From NCBI GenBank assembly GCA_033439255.1, contig CM065878.1:4030001-4094000 (forward strand): a DNA stretch of 64,000 bases, written 5' to 3'. The first letter of the stretch is position 1. Each line of letters opens with the position of its first letter. Of this stretch, positions 17,354 through 50,731 are shown piece by piece. The DNA comes from Hericium rajendrae. Lineage: Eukaryota > Basidiomycota > Agaricomycetes > Russulales > Hericiaceae. The position numbers and the translations under genes were made by a program. Under the pieces are notes generated by a model. The model worked only from the letters and a program-made list of their open reading frames with translations, was not told where the DNA came from and did not search any database.

Positions 17354-17427
17354 GGTCCGATGGCGTAGTTTGTTATCGCATCTGTCTAACACACAGAAGG
17401 TCCTCTGTTCGAGCCAGGGTCGGATCA
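17354..17427 (+). tRNA. tRNA-Val (anticodon AAC)
   Basis: A 74-nt cloverleaf without intron. The acceptor arms GGTCCGA and TCGGATC pair with one G-U. The D arm is GCG...CGC. The anticodon stem TCTGT/ACAGA encloses the loop CTAACAC (anticodon AAC). The T arm is CTCTG-TTCGAGC-CAGGG, and A is the discriminator base. The internal A box (TGGCGTAGTTTGTTATCGC) and B box (GTTCGAGCC) are recognisable. A run of five T about 20 bp downstream (near 17450) can stop RNA polymerase III. Confidence 0.92.
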
Positions 17428-17705
17428 CTGCCATTGATGCACCAATTCTATTTTTCGAGGCCGACTTACATAGGACTAACCAATTTTTTTCTCCATCCTT
17501 CATGTTTTCATTATGACTGTTCGGATATGTTTTGTCATCATGTGGACAATGCGTAATACTTACCGTATGTTGCAGCATTTTGCGTTGTTGTAGTTTGTTT
17601 TTTCCAGAAGCTCTTGCCAAACCTGCCACAACAACCGCCTGAATGCGTCGATAGCTCAAGCGCTTACGCTCGAATTCGCCGCGTCGCGTCCGCCGATCTA
17701 CGAAA

Positions 17706-41700: not shown

Positions 41701-43376
41701 ATAGGGATACCACGGAATTGTGGTTCACAATCATCAAGGGCTCCATCGATCTCGGATATTACGATGACGCGTATGTCGCTCTGATGACAACGCCACATGA
41801 CAAGCTGTAAGTGTGCCTCTCATCTATCATGCATTGTGTTGAACGGATCCCAGGAGACGGGAATGCGTCAGGCAGTTTGTCTATCGTATCTGCGAAGAGC
41901 AAGCTGTCCAGAAGCTCGTCTCGTTCAATTTTGTCGGCCTGGCGGACGAGGTAGAGGAGTGCTTGTCGTTCAAGGCGCGTAACGCAGATCCACGCGAACG
42001 ACCGTCGTACGCCCGAATTCTGTATACGTGGTACATCACACGAGGCGATTACCGCAATGGTATGCAAGTCCTTTCCCAAGTCTTTTTGATCCTGATTGCT
42101 TTCTTGCAGCGGCTTTGGTCATGTACCAGCGTGCCAGGAAGCTATCCGTGCTTAGCAACGATCCTGCTCAATTCGCGTTCATCGCTGAACAAACTCTTGA
42201 ATCCTACACCATCGCAATCAACGCACTGAGGCTCCTTGACCAAAAGAATCCGTGGATCGTCTTGCCGCTGTCTGCGGAGATCGGACACCCGAGGAAACGC
42301 AGGAAGCTGACGAAAAACATTCCGGAGGACAACTTTAGCAATGAAAGGCGCGACTCGGAGATCGTGGAGCTGAACGACATCTTGGAGGAATATACCCTGT
42401 TGCTGGCGCGTATAGAGCTCATCAGACGAGATCCATCATTGTTGCACATCGGCGGTGAGTTGCATTTCAATCAGCTGGTGTCGCTTGATGCTAATTTATT
42501 ACATGGACGGGCAGACGTGCTCCTGCAGCCGGAATCGGTTGTGCTCAGGCTGGGACAAGCGAGCCGGTTCGACATGGCGCTATCGACTGCACATACTTTG
42601 AATGTCGATGCGACCGACGTGTTTTCGCATCTCACGCGTCAATGCCTACGGCTCACGAGGAACCCCGACGCAGTTCTGTGCGTCCTCCTCTTCGTTGTCC
42701 GGTGATTGACATGCTGAGTATCTTCACAGGTCGGAAGACACGAGCGATTGGCTACTCACAGATAAGGCGACATCTTGGCCCGGAACGCCTGCCGATCGCG
42801 GCTGGAGATACCTGCGGCAAGCGCTGGAGCGGTATGATAGCCAGGCGACCGACTTCAAGTACACAAAAGCTGTGTTCCAGACGGTATTGGGCTACGACCG
42901 GTCGTCAATGCCGCCGCCATGGCTGGTACGCTCATTGGAGGTGAGATCGTTGTCCAAGATATTGTAGACCACGCCGATTTATTGGTTGTTGCAGGAGCAT
43001 CACCCTGAATGGCTGATTCGAACATGCCTTCGGTACGAGATGTTCGAGATGGCGCTTGAGCAGACAAAAGCTATGATTCGCGCGGTGCGTTCTACCTTTC
43101 TCATCACTTTGTATCACCTATTCACCCGCCTTCCATCTACAGGCGGACGCGCGTCTCGCACAATACCCACCAAAAACGTCCATGGCGACGTGGCTGCCGT
43201 ATACACTCATCGACCAATTGCTGATCGCCACCGCCGAGGAGGCTCTGTCGGCGAAGGCGCAGAGTCTGCGGAAAGAGGTGCATTCGGAGGTACTCAACCG
43301 GACGAGGAAGATGGAGAAGATGACTGAGGCGCTGGGTGTACCGAGAACGGGTGGTGATGCGATTATGGTGTTGTAG
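38771..43376 (+). CDS. NUP160: Nucleoporin Nup120/Nup160, Y-complex of the nuclear pore
   Basis: Scaffold component of the outer ring (Y complex) of the nuclear pore. Start at 38771: MATNTTLVSTHLSSLYTPSH. The N-terminal half reads as a beta-propeller (HCNLTGTIILRLLHNGIILE, VWTLSRDRTLRLWAARSGCT, YLDPEPQKLLAVFTVETHPE, LAFIPTPSSSSAGGFFQLFG). The largest exon (39427-41520) continues into the alpha-helical part with SLKRDWEGFIARCREVERSA. The 3' exons give FGFYLHVSALFKAAGLADSE, AFIAEQTLESYTIAINALRL, EYTLLLARIELIRRDPSLL and WLVRSLEEHHPEWLIRTCLR, ending TGGDAIMVL and TAG at 43374-43376. Roughly 1,350 residues, the usual size for this nucleoporin. Frame and intron phases are consistent throughout. Confidence 0.9.
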
Positions 43377-43844
43377 ATAGTTGATGTTGTTCGATACCTG
43401 CGGCGGGGGCGTTTGGCCAAGATCTTTGGGTGGCCAGATGATGAGATGATGAAATGCGGAGGTCCCCGCCGATATGCCGCAACACAAACTCCAACTTGCA
43501 CTAGACCGTAGACGACACACATATGACATTTGCGACGTTATATAAACACTCCACCGCCATCGCCCGTCCACTGTAATGGACTTCATGGCTATTATCACAT
43601 GCTACGGTCGCGACGCATGCACGCAAATCTTCGAGAAAGTACGTCACCCAATAGACCACTGACAGCGTGTTTCCAGCGTGTATCGTGGAAAAGGGAACAC
43701 TGACCCTTGGTGGATCTATAGTGAAAGTCAGCCTTCGACCTTGTTCTCTTTTTATTGGTCCTTGCTATCTCTGCTAATCGTCCCAAACAGCGTTCAAGGT
43801 TCAAAACCACATCGGCATCATCGAGCACGCTGCACGCTCCGTTG

Positions 43845-44000
43845 GCAGATCACGGTCAGTAAAAGCTACCGCCATGCACATCACCCAAATTGACCTTTCA
43901 TGTTATTCATTTGCCTTCGTAGGTCACGCAGAAACGTGTCTTCAGCGTTGATTCTGCTACATGCCACGTGGATGGTGCTGACCATATGCATGACACGATG
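43845..44000 (+). repeat. Diverged copy of the NDUFB3 5' end
   Basis: Aligns in order with 50277-50425, the first exon, intron 1, tiny exon 2 and intron 2 of NDUFB3. Shared pieces are TGGCAG-CACGGTCAGTA, CATCACCCA-A-TGACCT (here) against CGTCACCCACACTGACCT, the intron 1 acceptor region, CTTCAGCG, and GTGGATGGT-CTGAC--CATGCA. Identity is moderate and spacing is conserved. The ATG at 43968 of the kinase-like gene lies within this block. Confidence 0.65.
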
Positions 44001-45294
44001 TCGGCGCAGTTCCACATAATCCGAAACAAGGATAACAAGGAGTTGAAACTCTGGCCGTTCAGACGGATATCACCATCTGGGGAGGGATCGAAGGACTCTT
44101 CGTGTAGACTGGATGAGCCCCAGCCGGATCTTATCACCGGAAAACCTCAGCCCCTCGAGGTACTAACAGATAAATCTGTTGCATCTGGCAACAACATAGA
44201 ATTTTACCAAGCATACGCATTAACAACACGGAAATCAGGAAAATTGTGTTTCGCATTTGCCAACATTCATCTCATTATGTACAAGATTGCATATGGGAAA
44301 GAGGCGATCCAGAAGCTGCGCACTGAGGCTCGTCTGTATGGCCGCGAATTGAAGGCACTCCAAGGAACGTTCGTGCCGACATACCTGGGATACTTCGAAA
44401 GCCAGATCGATGATGTCGATGTCGAGTGCATGGTCGTTGAATCGATGGGACATATTACCGAGGACGTGACTCCGCCTGCGGATGATCCTTCTGGGAAGCC
44501 CATAAAGTAAGCAGTCTTTGATTCGGCTTTCTTTTGTCAGGCTCATAGTCGGCCCAGGCAAGCATTGGTCGATGCATATATCCAGATCCACAAAGCGGGA
44601 GTAATCTATAGAGATTGGTCCACTGGCATGGCCTTCATGCATGATGAAGTTCCAGGCGCAAACGTGAAGATAGTGGGATTTGGCGACGTGATAACTGGGC
44701 ATGAGTGTAAAGGGATCCAAAACCACAATGCCCACACCAGGCCAATGGACAATAGCGAAGACTGCTGCGAGGAGTTATGGGATTTTTGTGATGAGATGCA
44801 TTTTTGGGCAGCACGTAAGCCATAACCATAATGAATATGATGGACGTCGACTAATGTGTCTATAGCGTACGTGTTTTGCTGGGGTGAAAGAGTTCTTGTA
44901 GACCCCGAATTCGACGTGGCTAAGCTGGTCGAGAAAGTCACAGCCCTAAGCGACTTAGAAAATCATGGTATCTGGTTGGAGGCAGGTTTCAAGTGGAAGT
45001 GTTGGGAGTCGGCTTTCTGCTGCTACATTGAATACACAAAGAAATATGGCCCGGAGAACCGTCACGAAGGGCTGCTCGCAGAGTTTAGTAAGTCGGCACT
45101 GTTTTTGCTTCCAGATAGACACTGATAAAGAACAGGATCATGGTCAGAGAAGAATAGAAAGGCCGGAATCACGAGCTTGAGCGTGCCTAAGCATCTGCTA
45201 GAATCACGCAAGCTTGATGAGGTACATATCTGGTTGCTCGGTTCCACCTAGCTTCTGACATGTTTTGTAGGCCGGACGTACGAAGCAAGATTGA
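43968..45294 (+). CDS. Kinase-like protein A (probable pseudokinase)
   Basis: Resembles fungal proteins with a divergent protein-kinase fold. From the ATG at 43968: AQFHIIRNKDNKELKLWPFR, EFYQAYALTTRKSGKLCFAF, IMYKIAYGKEAIQKLRTEAR, LKALQGTFVPTYLGYFESQ (the lobe hinge region) and ECMVVESMG. After an intron come ALVDAYIQIHKAGVIYRDWS and IVGFGDVITGHECKG. The catalytic-loop Asp is kept in YRDW, but the Asn five positions later is Met, and the metal-binding DFG is GFG. The last exons give VLVDPEFDVAKLVEKV, CCYIEYTKKYGPENRHEGLL and SLSVPKHLLESRKLDE, ending AGRTKQD, TGA 45292-45294. A TATA box at 43541-43548 and an ATG at 43576 leave open an upstream first exon. Catalysis looks unlikely; function unknown. 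Confidence 0.6.
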
Positions 45295-45879
45295 AACCTC
45301 ATACCGAATGATCTTCTTACTTCATGGAAAGAAGACCATATGTAGTGCGCATTTGTTGAGACTGTAATGATGTCAGTGTGATATCCAAGTCCAGAACACC
45401 GACACGTTTAAAAACACCTACTGACCGGCTGCGTGTGATGCACGCGCATGAGTTTGCCCACCAGTGCGCCGTGTGTCGGCTGGACAGAATGTGCTATCTA
45501 TCTTGCCGTATCATTGTAATTGACTCTTCTCGCAGTCCGACCGTTTGCACTATGATTCTTGGCCTGAACGTATCAAAGGTTGACGAGAATTCCAGTCACG
45601 GACGATGCGCATGCATACTTGACAAGTAATGCTAATTTGAGCACGACGAGCGAACCAAACTTTGCTCGGAGGCATTTCTAGCAAGCAGTTGTGACATTCG
45701 GAGGAACTGATGTCGAGCCGACATTGTCGACGGCAGACCCTTTGTCGACGGACAATGCCACCGTTATGGGGAGACCGCCATCCATTCGGTATAGAGATGG
45801 TTTCGAGGAAAAGAGAATGTGATAAGAAGGCCACGTGTGTGCAGTGTGTATGAGTTCAAAATGCTCGACGATAGTCGGC

Positions 45880-48020
45880 TTGGGAAAAGGTGTCGTCCAT
45901 GGGAAGATGATGAGATGGTGAGATGCCGGAACGGATTTCTAAAAATGTTGCATACTTAGCTTACATCCCGATCCATCTCGCGACAGGACGACGTGCACGC
46001 CGCACATGCGATTTATGGCGTCCGTTCTTCTCCCACATTCTAGGCGATGTATGACCTGTGTGAAAGTACGTCAACGAGGCGTCTACCTAGGCTGAAAGCG
46101 TGCTTCCTGGTGCAGGTGAATAATTCTCACCGACATCCCCAGATTCTCAACAGTTTACGATCCGGCATTGCTTCGGCCATAGCGGGGCCCACATTGACAT
46201 AACCAAGCACACAATTCTCTTAGGAACCTGGAGCTGCTTCTCATCCCTACGATGTCCCACTGTGCTTTCCACATATCGAGCTCTCGAGCTGGCGCTCGAG
46301 CCGACAAGAGGCTGGTCACATTTAGTCGCATCTCGCCGTACCCACAAGGAACAGCCCAAGACGCTTCATACGATGACTGTCACATAGAATTCTTCACTTC
46401 CGGAACCAGGCAGCTCTGCAAGGATGACGAAAACACGACTGTCTACCAAGCACTTGCCGTTGTAAAGAATGCTGCGCAATCAGTGCGCTTCGTATTTGAG
46501 CCGCCAGGCATCTGAAAAAGCTCCAGGGTGTCTATGTACCGGTGTACCGCGGATACTTTCAACGCAAGCTCATTGATGGTACCGAGGCCGAGTGTATGAT
46601 TGTCAGCTCGAGTGGAAAAACAAGGGTTGGCCGACTGCGGATGGCCGACAATGATCACCTTGTTTACGCACCGATAAAGTAAGTAGCACCTTTATAAATT
46701 GCGTTGACCTATGCTTACTTCTCGTTCAGGCAAGCATGGGTCAACGCACTGATCGAGATTCACAGAGCTGGGATACAGTACGGCAACAATCTGCCGAAAA
46801 TGATGATCACAAAAGATCCAGAAAATCCTGAAATCATGAGGATCGCAGACTTCACGACGGCAACTACTGGACACAGTAATTGTAAAGGGCTCGGACTGAA
46901 AAACTCAAACTACGAAGCTCACACGACTCTAAGCGCGGACCAGGATGAGTGTTGCCCCGAGTTATGGACATTCTGCCAGATCATCAGGTTTTGGGCACCG
47001 CGTGAGTCTTCCGTCACCGTAGTGTCGTTGTTGGGATTTTAGCTGATGTTTGGTATATTTAGCGAAGATTGTCTATTGCGATAAAACTTTCCCTGTAGAC
47101 CCGGAGTTCAATGTAGGCAAGCTAGTGCAGCATGGCGGGGGTTGGCTGGTTCCCGAACAGTACTGGCCAGAGGCTTTCAAGTGTTACATTGATTACACAA
47201 AGGCATGGGGCCCTGAGAAGCGCCATCAAGAGCTCCTCGAGGAGAGAGGTGCGTTGACCATGATTTGACTTGTAGAGCAGAAATCTAATCATGAAAACTG
47301 CCTACGCAGCCGAGTGGGAGAAGCAGAACATATCTCCTGCAGTCGACGATGCCCAGGTATTTACATGCTTGCCCCATCTTGCCCAATCTTCTAACATGTT
47401 TTTCAGGTCGAGCATACAGAGCAGTAAAGTCTCATGCCGAGTGGTTTTTGTACGCGAAGATCTTCTGAAGTACGTGGTAGCATGGGGAAAGCCGCATACC
47501 GAGCATATCTTCTGATCCTTTGCCCATGTTGAGAACGTGAATATCATTTTCATGCTGAGATAATCAACCTGCCGTCCAAACTGAAACTCCGCCGACTTAT
47601 TGAATACGACAAAAATGACGAGTAATAAGAGACATCATGGAAAAGGCGCATGTGCATGTCTCACATGTATGAGTGGAAAAAGTCAACATCGTGTAAAGGA
47701 CGGCGTTCAGACCCTCAAGGGATATCGGTCTGTCGAGATGGTGCAGTGCTAAAAAGCGGGATCCCGGTGAGCACGATGAGCGAGCCACACTTTCCGCAAA
47801 AGCATTCCCAGCGAGCAATTGTGACATCCGGAGGCATCGATGTCAGACCGACATTGTCGACGGCAGACCCTTTGTCGACGGCGGACGCTGCAGTGTCATC
47901 GTTATCGGGAGACCGCCACCCATTCCGCATAGATATGGTTTCGAAAAGGAGAAGAAAAAAAGATAAGAAGACCACGTGTGTGCAGCGTGTATGAGTTGAA
48001 AACGCTCGACGACAGTTGGC
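45880..48020. repeat. Tandem unit B of the kinase-like array
   Basis: Unit B and unit C are close copies. The landmark TTGGGAAAAGGTGTCGTCC starts at 45880 and again at 48021, an offset of 2,141 bp. The duplicate intergenic sequence includes GTCGACGGCAGACCCTTTGT at about 45728 and 47858. Confidence 0.85.
46252..47429 (+). pseudogene. Kinase-like gene B, disrupted
   Basis: Copy of the same family. It begins MSHCAFHISSSRAGARADKR, SRISPYPQGTAQDASYDD, YQALAVVKNAAQSVRFVFEP. Compared with copy C it lacks 73 bp after the codons for PPGI, covering the YKVASGKEATTKLRIEARLY region, which removes the equivalent of the ATP-binding strand and helix and gives an in-frame TGA at 46513-46515. Downstream sequence is still well preserved: RGYFQRKLIDGTEAECM..., ALIEIHRAGIQYGNNLPKMM, IADFTTATTGHSNCKG, PVDPEFNVGKLVQH and YIDYTKAWGPEKRHQELLEE. 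The final exon ends at TAA 47427-47429. Its catalytic-loop Asp is Asn (YGNN), so it was already inactive by sequence. The preserved remainder suggests a recent loss. Confidence 0.8.
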
Positions 48021-50207
48021 TTGGGAAAAGGTGTCGTCCATGGCAAGATGGTGAGATGGTGAGATGGCTGACCAGATTTCCAAAAATGTCGCGTACTTGT
48101 ACAACCCCGATCAATCAGGATCCATTTCAGGACGACGTGCACGCCGCACACGCGATGAGTCTATGGCATCCGTTCTTCTCCCACATTCTAGGCAATGCAT
48201 GGCATGTGTGAAAGTACGTCAAGAGGCGTTTACCCATGCTGAAAGCGTGCTTCCTGGTGCATGTCAACAGTTCTCACCGACATCCCCAGATTCTCAACAG
48301 TCTACGATCCGGCATTGCTTCAGCCATAGCGGGGCCCACATTGACATAACCAAGCACACAGTTCTCTAGAAACCTGGATCTGCTTCTCGTCCATACGATG
48401 TCCCACTGCATTCCACATATCGAGCTCTCGAGCTGGCACTCGAGCCGACCAGAAGCTGGTGACATTTTGCCGCATCTCGCCATATCCACAAGGAACAGCC
48501 CAAGACGCTTCATACGATGACTCTCAAACAGAATTCTTCACTTCCGGAACCAGGCGGCTCTGCAAGAACGACGAAAACACAGCTGTCTACCAAGCGATTG
48601 CCGTTGTAAAGAACGGCGCGCAATCGGTGCGCTTCGTATTTGAGCCACCAGGCATCTTGTACAAGGTCGCGTCGGGAAAGGAGGCGACCACGAAACTACG
48701 CATAGAGGCCCGCCTATACTGCGAGAATTTGAAGAGCCTCCAAGGAAAATTTGTTCCGATTTTCCGCGGGTACTTTCAACGCAAGCTCATTGACGGTACC
48801 GAGGCAGAGTGTATGGTTGTCAGTTCGAATGGCAAAACAGGCTCTGGGCAACTGCGGGTGCCCAAACCCGATCATCTCGTTTGGAAACCGATAAAGTAAG
48901 AAGCACGCTCATTGTTTGTGTTGAATTATACTCAATTCTCGTTCAGGCAAGCATGGGTCAACGCGCTGATCGAGATCCACAAAGCTGGAGTACAATACGG
49001 CGACAATCTGCTGAAGATGATGATCACGAAAAACCAGGACAACCCTGAAATCATGAGGATTACCGACTTCAAGACGGCAACCACTGGACACGTTAACTGT
49101 AAAGGGCTCGGACCGGCAAGCTCAAGCTACGAAGCTCACACAAATCTTGCTTGGGTGGATGAAGATGACTGTTGCCCAGAATTATTGAGATTCTGCCAGA
49201 TCATCAATTTTTGGGCGCCGCGTGGGTGTTTCGTCACCATAACTTCGCTATCAGGATCTTCACTGAGTTTTGTATATTTAGCAAATATTGTTTACGGCAA
49301 TGACGTTCTCCCTGTCGATCCGGAGTTCAATGTAGGCAAGTTGGTGCAGCACGCCCGGCGTTGGCTCGTTCCCAATGAGCATTGGCCAGAGGCTTTCCAG
49401 TGCTACATCGATTACACAAAGGCATGGGGTCCTGAGAAGCGCCACCAAGAGCTCCTCAAGGAAAGAGGTGCGTTGACGACGATTCGACGATTCGACTTGT
49501 AGAGCAGAAACCTGATCTAGAAATTTGTCTATGAAGCCGAGTGGGAGAAGCAGAAGAAGAACGCACCGCGCGCAATTGGTGATGACCAGGTATTCACATG
49601 CTTGCCCGGCCTTGCCCAATCTTCTAACAGGTCTTTCAGGTCGAGCGTACAGAGCAGTAAAGTCTCGTGCCGAGTGGTTTTTGTATGCGAAGATCTTCTG
49701 AAGTATGTGGTGGCATGGAGAAAGCTGCATATTATCTTTTGGTCCTGTATCCATGTCGAGAACGTTTATATCATTTTCATGCTGAGATAATTGACCTGCC
49801 GTCCAAACTGGGACTTCGTCGACTAAAGGAGCGTTAACCGATCGTGTTGTATGCGGGTGGCCTTCAGTGGCCATACGCCGAGCAAGTCACGGAAGCCGTT
49901 GCATACCTACAGCTGACCTCTCTTGCAGTACAGTATGTCTTGCATCTTCGAAGGGATCCTCAGACGTCGCTCCGTTCAAGGCCCCTGAGACAGTCACCAG
50001 GTGGTCCTTAATTTCACCATCTCATGTATTGAACACGACAAAAATGACGAGTAATAAGAGATATCATGGAAAGGGCGCATGCGCGTATCTCACATGTATG
50101 AGTAGGAAAAGTCAGCATCGTGTAGAGGACGGCCTCCTCTAGACCCGCAAGCGATATCGGTCTGTCGAGATGGTGCAGTGCTGAAAAGCGCGATCCCGAA
50201 CCGATAG
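48021..50207. repeat. Tandem unit C of the kinase-like array
   Basis: Close copy of unit B. Similarity to the downstream part of unit B (47580-47765) resumes at about 50030 and stops at 50207, 68 bp before the NDUFB3 ATG. Relative to B it holds about 200 extra bases (49830-50028). Confidence 0.8.
48398..49660 (+). CDS. Kinase-like protein C (probable pseudokinase, start unresolved)
   Basis: Best preserved copy. Frame from about 48430: ADQKLVTFCRISPYPQGTAQ, AVYQAIAVVKNGAQSVRFVF, YKVASGKEATTKLRIEARLY, LKSLQGKFVPIFRGYFQRKL, AECMVVSSNGKTGSGQLR. After an intron (48899-48944) come QAWVNALIEIHKAGVQYGDN, MRITDFKTATTGHVNCKG, YGNDVLPVDPEFNVGKLVQH, CYIDYTKAWGPEKRHQELLK and FVYEAEWEKQKKNA, ending VERTEQ, TAA 49658-49660. 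The catalytic-loop Asp (YGDN) is present but the following Asn is not in place; DFG is DFK. The ATG at 48398, shared with copy B, is out of frame because C lacks two bases just after it, so either an upstream exon supplies the start or the copy is also failing. Function unknown. Confidence 0.55.
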
Positions 50208-50274: not shown

Positions 50275-50731
50275 ATGGCAGGCCACGGTCAGTACACACC
50301 CTTCCCGAGCCCGTCACCCACACTGACCTCTGTTCTCGCCTTCCGATCGCAGGCTATGTGAAAGTGCGTCCTTAGCACGGCTTCAGCGCGTGTGTGGATG
50401 GTACTGACTGCATGCAGCACGACCCGGCCATCGAGCGATGGAACCGCATGGTGCGTGCTTCCCATTCCTCCCTGCCATTTGCCTTTGCTGAGTCTGGCAA
50501 TTTGTGGGCTACAGCGCGAAGATGTGTACAAGTACTTCAAGTTCACGCGGCGCGCGACGTGGTTCTCCCTAGTGGGGGTTGTGTTCGTCCCCGCCGCGAT
50601 CGCGTTAGCATCGCAGCAGACTGACGTGCGTGCATTCCTCTCTTGTGTGGATCGTTGGGCTGATCACTTCGCGCTGGCAGCTGAGGTGGAGCTGGCCTGG
50701 GAAGCGCAAGGGCGAGTCGCTGTCGAACTGA
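50275..50731 (+). CDS. NDUFB3: NADH:ubiquinone oxidoreductase subunit NDUFB3 (B12), mitochondrial complex I
   Basis: Accessory membrane-arm subunit of respiratory complex I. Five exons: 50275-50287, 50353-50363 (11 nt), 50418-50450, 50515-50625 and 50681-50731, totalling 219 nt (72 residues). The protein reads MAGHGYVKHDPAIERWNRMR, EDVYKYFKFTRRATWF, one transmembrane segment SLVGVVFVPAAIALAS, QQTDLRWSWPGKRKGESL and SN, TGA. HDPA-E-W--MRE and the C-terminal KRKGESL match B12 subunits of fungi and animals. Convergent with COQ7 (129 bp between stops), so two respiratory-chain genes adjoin. A diverged copy of its first two exons lies at 43845-44000. Confidence 0.93.

Follow-up and report, generated by a model that had tools for sequence, protein, structure and literature searches.

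Three related kinase-like units, copies A, B and C, were found in tandem at 43.4–50.2 kb of the window, i.e., the 64,000-nt stretch of the Hericium rajendrae genome analyzed here (G000:C1:4030001-4094000), with common blocks in the same order in all of them. None of the three carries the catalytically complete set of kinase residues (HRD His and Asp, catalytic-loop Asn, and DF Asp). Our preferred reading, to which we give a probability of about 0.5, is that the array descends from a kinase-like protein that lacked phosphotransfer and functioned by binding; copy A may still act in this way, and copies B and C would be recently dead. The array itself is a small clade of a protein kinase-like (PKL-type) family of this fungus, the genome of which (46.8 Mb, 19 contigs) was searched for relatives. 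All elements of the array, as well as its two neighboring genes, lie on the plus strand.

Catalytic Residues and Phylogeny

The catalytic motifs read YRD....M / GFG in copy A, YGN....M / ADF in copy B, and YGD....M / TDF in copy C. In copy A, Lys and alpha-C Glu were kept, while HRD was changed to YRD, the catalytic Asn to Met, and the Asp of DF to Gly. Lys and alpha-C Glu were also kept in copy C; the segment carrying them was deleted from copy B. The replacements of His by Tyr and of Asn by Met are common to all three copies and therefore, most simply, predate the duplications of the array. Within the array, the HRD Asp was replaced by Asn only in B, and the DF Asp was lost only in A. An earlier sequence-only reading of this DNA had regarded the motif losses as independent in each copy, which holds for the separate changes of Asp to Asn in B and Asp to Gly in A, but not for the shared Tyr and Met.

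The family tree was built from 26 rows without the catalytic columns and is unrooted; locus L065, which has no catalytic part, was left out. Copies A, B, and C formed one clade (100/100) with a stem of 1.44 changes per column, in agreement with the earlier description of a fast-evolving lineage. Among the rows with a letter at the respective place, Lys was present in 22/25, alpha-C Glu in 25/26, HRD His in 18/25, HRD Asp in 14/25, the catalytic Asn in 15/26, and DF Asp in 17/26. His, HRD Asp, Asn, and DF Asp were all kept in 11 of the 26 rows, every one of them on contig 8 at 631–737 kb; one of these rows, L069, has Arg in place of Lys and looks broken. The other rows were partial (4) or degenerate (11, including A, B, and C). 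It is possible to place all degenerate rows to one side of a single branch (92/93). The tree requires at least one change for Asn, three for DF Asp, and four each for His and HRD Asp.

Relatives were found on contigs 8, 10, 7, and 12 with A, C, and three paralogues as queries (tblastn for A and C). A family match (E < 1) was given by 24 of the 25 further loci fetched; the remaining one, L073 on contig 14, had no family match at E < 1. The position and phase (2) of intron 1 agree between A, B, C, and six of the seven relatives examined. Four of these seven also have intron 2 (phase 1) in common; in a fifth it reads GC for GT, in one it was not located, and one relative is without it.

The contig 8 paralogues (L049-L055, L058-L061, L067, L069) resemble A, B, and C in block order (LQG--IP--GYF, IH-AGV, H--C, CPELY, LA-DA--LA), in the place and phase of the first intron (in those checked), and in having kept Lys and Glu. 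They differ in that 11 rows retain H-x-D, Asn, and DF Asp, whereas in A, B, and C both His and Asn, as well as some of the Asps, have been lost. The paralogues on contigs 7 and 12 (L062-L064, L066, L068, L070-L072) are, like the array, without the catalytic Asn and mostly also without HRD Asp and DF Asp; they differ in their replacements (YNN/HSN....H and NF) and in forming a separate branch of the tree. A second degenerate branch was located at 953–1028 kb of contig 7 (L062-L064, L066, L070-L072), where NF stands for DF and His for the catalytic Asn in most members.

Similarity to Kinases

Copies A and C, the two scanned, matched no Pfam family at E values up to 10. In five of the six paralogues scanned, a weak, sub-threshold likeness to eukaryotic protein kinases (PF00069), RIO1, Kdo/WaaP, APH, or TCAD9 was found at the catalytic loop; L066 gave none. 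The best paralogue match to PF00069 had an E value of 2.3e-05, and none exceeded the curated Pfam cut-off. A profile of eight aligned members, A and C included, retrieved 737 PDB sequences at E up to 1. The best 60 of these 737 matches were all named kinases or kinase-like proteins (best E 1.6e-04), with the similarity mostly confined to the catalytic loop; copy A alone gave seven matches with a best E of 0.22. The similarity of the family to the protein kinase-like superfamily is hence detectable. The earlier assignment to a kinase-like family with eroded catalytic motifs was supported. The further suggestion of an undescribed family was not supported in so far as it confines the family to the array: A and C have no Pfam match, but motif-complete relatives are present on contig 8. 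The existence of close relatives with complete motifs and demonstrated activity had been named as grounds for abandoning the earlier interpretation; complete motifs, the first half of these grounds, are present on contig 8.

FunK1 (Pkinase_fungal, PF17667) is likewise a fungal kinase family expanded in this genome, with 127 exon-level matches. Membership of our family in FunK1 was rejected: neither contig 8 nor the window holds any of the 127 PF17667 matches, and the highest-scoring paralogue reached 12.6 bits, the cut-off being 24.1. The FunK1 expansion is distributed over contigs 2, 4, 7, and others, with many matches on 4 and 7, and some of them contain internal stops. The FunK1 matches, along with the structures of the genes, mark the genome as fungal.

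Structure of the Three Copies

Copy A (43998..45294) was modeled by eye from GT-AG sites as a kinase-like gene of 365 aa, open throughout. Its five exons (43998-44506, 44558-44814, 44866-45087, 45136-45221, and 45271-45294) contain no stop and have canonical GT-AG borders. The amino-acid identity between A and C was 43% over 248 columns; copy A is older than the B and C duplicates. The 3' ends of A and B are homologous (0/500 shuffles as good), while homology upstream of them is doubtful (10/500).

Units B (45638..47766) and C (47768..50198), each comprising a gene and its flanks, lie end to end as tandem duplicates, with 1807 identical bases among the 2115 aligned (0.854), flanking DNA included. 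Besides the genes, the duplication takes in some 0.6 kb of upstream and 0.3 kb of downstream DNA. A stretch of 202 nt downstream of copy C (approximately 49825-50026) is not present in B. We rejected the possibility of a mobile or dispersed repeat, as the 613-nt leader of B was located nowhere in the genome outside B and C.

Both genes appear to be broken in this assembly, unless other splicing bridges the lesions. The reading frame of copy B (46252..47427) opens with MSHCAFHIS at 46252 but is shifted by a deletion of 73 nt (net) at 46513/46514 and ends there. The missing segment matches ILYKVASGKEATTKLRIEARLY of C, which holds Lys and alpha-C Glu. In copy C (48398..49660), the ATG at 48398 is in the same place as the starts of A and B; compared with B, 2 nt are deleted immediately behind it, which leaves it out of frame. 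From the in-frame stop at 48342 up to position 48813, the reading frame of C offers no further start codon. Neither lesion had been noticed in the sequence-only reading.

Selection and Alternative Explanations

The ratio of nonsynonymous to synonymous substitution rates (dN/dS) between B and C over 288 codons was 0.31 at kappa 1, 0.37 at kappa 2, and 0.44 at kappa 4, with bootstrap ranges of 0.20–0.47 (kappa 1) and 0.25–0.52 (kappa 2); another alignment gave 0.36 (0.25–0.56). The B–C differences were distributed over codon positions as 37/32/71, and the two wrong frames gave dN/dS values of 1.23 and 1.21. The ratio and the codon-position pattern indicate that coding constraint acted after the split of B and C and outlasted the loss of the motifs. 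For comparison, five motif-complete pairs had values of 0.20, 0.25, 0.28, 0.32, and 0.37, the degenerate contig 7 pairs L066/L072 and L062/L070 had 0.22 and 0.29, respectively, and a partial pair on contig 10 had 0.27.

HRD His and the catalytic-loop Asn were lost before A, B, and C split, and the DF Asp of A and the HRD Asp of B later and separately. On our preferred reading, the common ancestor, already without phosphotransfer, would have been kept as a non-catalytic binding protein of the pseudokinase type, in which the conserved Lys–Glu pair may have held the N-lobe or a nucleotide. Selection would have acted on this ancestral protein until after the tandem duplication of B and C; frame-breaking lesions in both would then have turned them into recent pseudogenes, with A as the probable surviving copy.

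Several observations weigh against this reading. The flanks of B and C were as conserved as the exons (upstream blocks 0.83–0.96, downstream 0.84–0.90, exons 0.84, intron 1 0.74), so that little constraint would be left if the neutral rate were set from the flanks. The pair L058/L059 had a dN/dS of 0.26 though L059 looks broken; a low ratio is therefore no proof of present function. The first exon piece of B and C (46264-46512 vs. 48408-48656) had a dS of 0.21, compared with 0.43 elsewhere (kappa 2), which suggests gene conversion or mixed histories. The nearest upstream flank of the two units was 93% identical. Between A and C, dN/dS was 0.375 at a dS of 1.5, which is near saturation. An AlphaFold2 model of C with A (two sequences, introns read through) had a mean predicted local distance difference test (pLDDT) value of 32.2 and a predicted template modeling (pTM) score of 0.26; the predicted order of strands and helices was partly that of a kinase N-lobe, which at this pLDDT is no evidence of the fold. 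Finally, GT-AG intervals bridging the lesion of B exist, e.g., 46462-46526 (65 nt), and an upstream exon for C is possible: in-frame ATGs are present at 48195 and 48204, with stops at 48240, 48327, and 48342 preceding the open frame.

The strongest alternative, which we find possible but less convincing, is that the whole array consists of pseudogenes derived from a kinase-like gene that was once active, A being not yet broken and the motif changes reflecting decay. The lesions of B and C, the absence of DF Asp and Asn from A, and the exon-like conservation of the B–C flanks are consistent with it, as are amino-acid changes about twice as numerous on B (10) as on C (5), with 45 unresolved. The codon-position pattern and the dN/dS of 0.31–0.44 between B and C argue against it, and so does the structure of A with its five exons, open frame, and canonical borders. 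Decay also fits poorly with the Tyr and Met common to the three copies despite an identity as low as that between A and C, and with A–C differences of 126/108/180 over the codon positions. Relaxed selection, proposed earlier for the array, is not supported as a simple account, given the B–C ratio, even though the exons show no more conservation than their flanks.

It is improbable that B and C are expressed via other starts or splicing and that the array comprises three working genes. Several GT-AG intervals join the halves of B, intron 2 of C is open in frame, and the upstream ATGs could serve C; however, a bridged B would still be without the Lys/alpha-C Glu segment, the ATG of C is placed as in A and B yet is out of frame, and the donor of intron 2 in C is GTGGGT, compared with GTGAGT in B. 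Active kinases without canonical residues are known, e.g., WNK and CASK, and compensated residues in A, or in the ancestor, with an unusual chemistry would agree with Lys, alpha-C Glu, and HRD Asp being kept in A and C and DF Asp in C, but we regard a still active phosphotransferase as hardly likely, as A has neither of the metal-binding positions (Asn and DF Asp) and no alternative residue could be placed in the structure from the model described above.

Flanking Genes and the Leader of Copy A

On the left, the array is preceded by the 3' part of the Nup160 gene (41983..43376, frame end at 43376), identified by PF23347 TPR_Nup160_C (27.2 bits against a cut-off of 27.1, piece 41983-42702). On the right, it is followed by a gene of five short exons (50275..50731) encoding NDUFB4, the B15/NB5M subunit of complex I (PF07225, 21.4 bits against a cut-off of 21; PDB chain 7zm7_j, NDUFB4, E 1.3e-09). 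The sequence-only reading had placed the three-copy array between Nup160 and NDUFB3; the array, its shared blocks, and Nup160 were recovered, and NDUFB3 was ruled out since the product matches NDUFB4. The sole tRNA found in the window was tRNA-Val (AAC) at 17354-17428.

A putative relic of the NDUFB4 5' end was located directly before the ATG of copy A (43843..43998). It aligns with 50276-50422, which covers the first two exons and introns of NDUFB4 and runs into the start of exon 3. The score of 41.5 was reached by none of 2000 shuffles (maximum 29) and was the best of 1098 window stretches, the next scoring 26.5. With stricter scoring the match was marginal: it scored 34, while 300 shuffles gave values up to 33 and a different stretch of the window, starting at 45445, reached 35. 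A DNA search of the genome with the leader of A gave a match only at itself and missed NDUFB4, the relic being visible only to a more permissive alignment. No such relic was found upstream of B and C, where 180 and 174 of 500 shuffles, respectively, were as good. The simplest account is that unequal exchange would have carried the 5' end of NDUFB4 to the left of A.

Implications

PKL expansions with low scores against kinase profiles have been described in general (PMC3777111). In excerpts of a review on fungal kinases, pseudokinases appear only as the GCN2 pseudokinase domain (PMC12394161). Our literature search, covering titles and the abstracts shown, retrieved no description of the present kinase-like family, which is no proof of absence.

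The catalytic Asn is missing from nearly half of the tree rows (11 of 26), namely A, B, C, and the members on contigs 7 and 12. One change on the tree is enough to account for this, and pairs on the Asn-less side had dN/dS values as low as those on the motif-complete side. Root permitting, we tentatively suggest that a large branch of selected non-enzymatic kinase-like proteins may exist in this fungus; the Nup160–NDUFB4 array would then be a local offshoot of this branch that is dying in part, and in which a leader derived from NDUFB4 is attached to one copy. The family, covered by no Pfam-A model over the cut-off in the proteins scanned, allows motif-complete and motif-less members to be contrasted within one genome. 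If copy A is dead, the locus would be an ordinary decaying tandem array; if A is expressed, it would be a simple setting in which to find out whether pseudokinases kept by selection occur among the kinase-like expansions of fungi.

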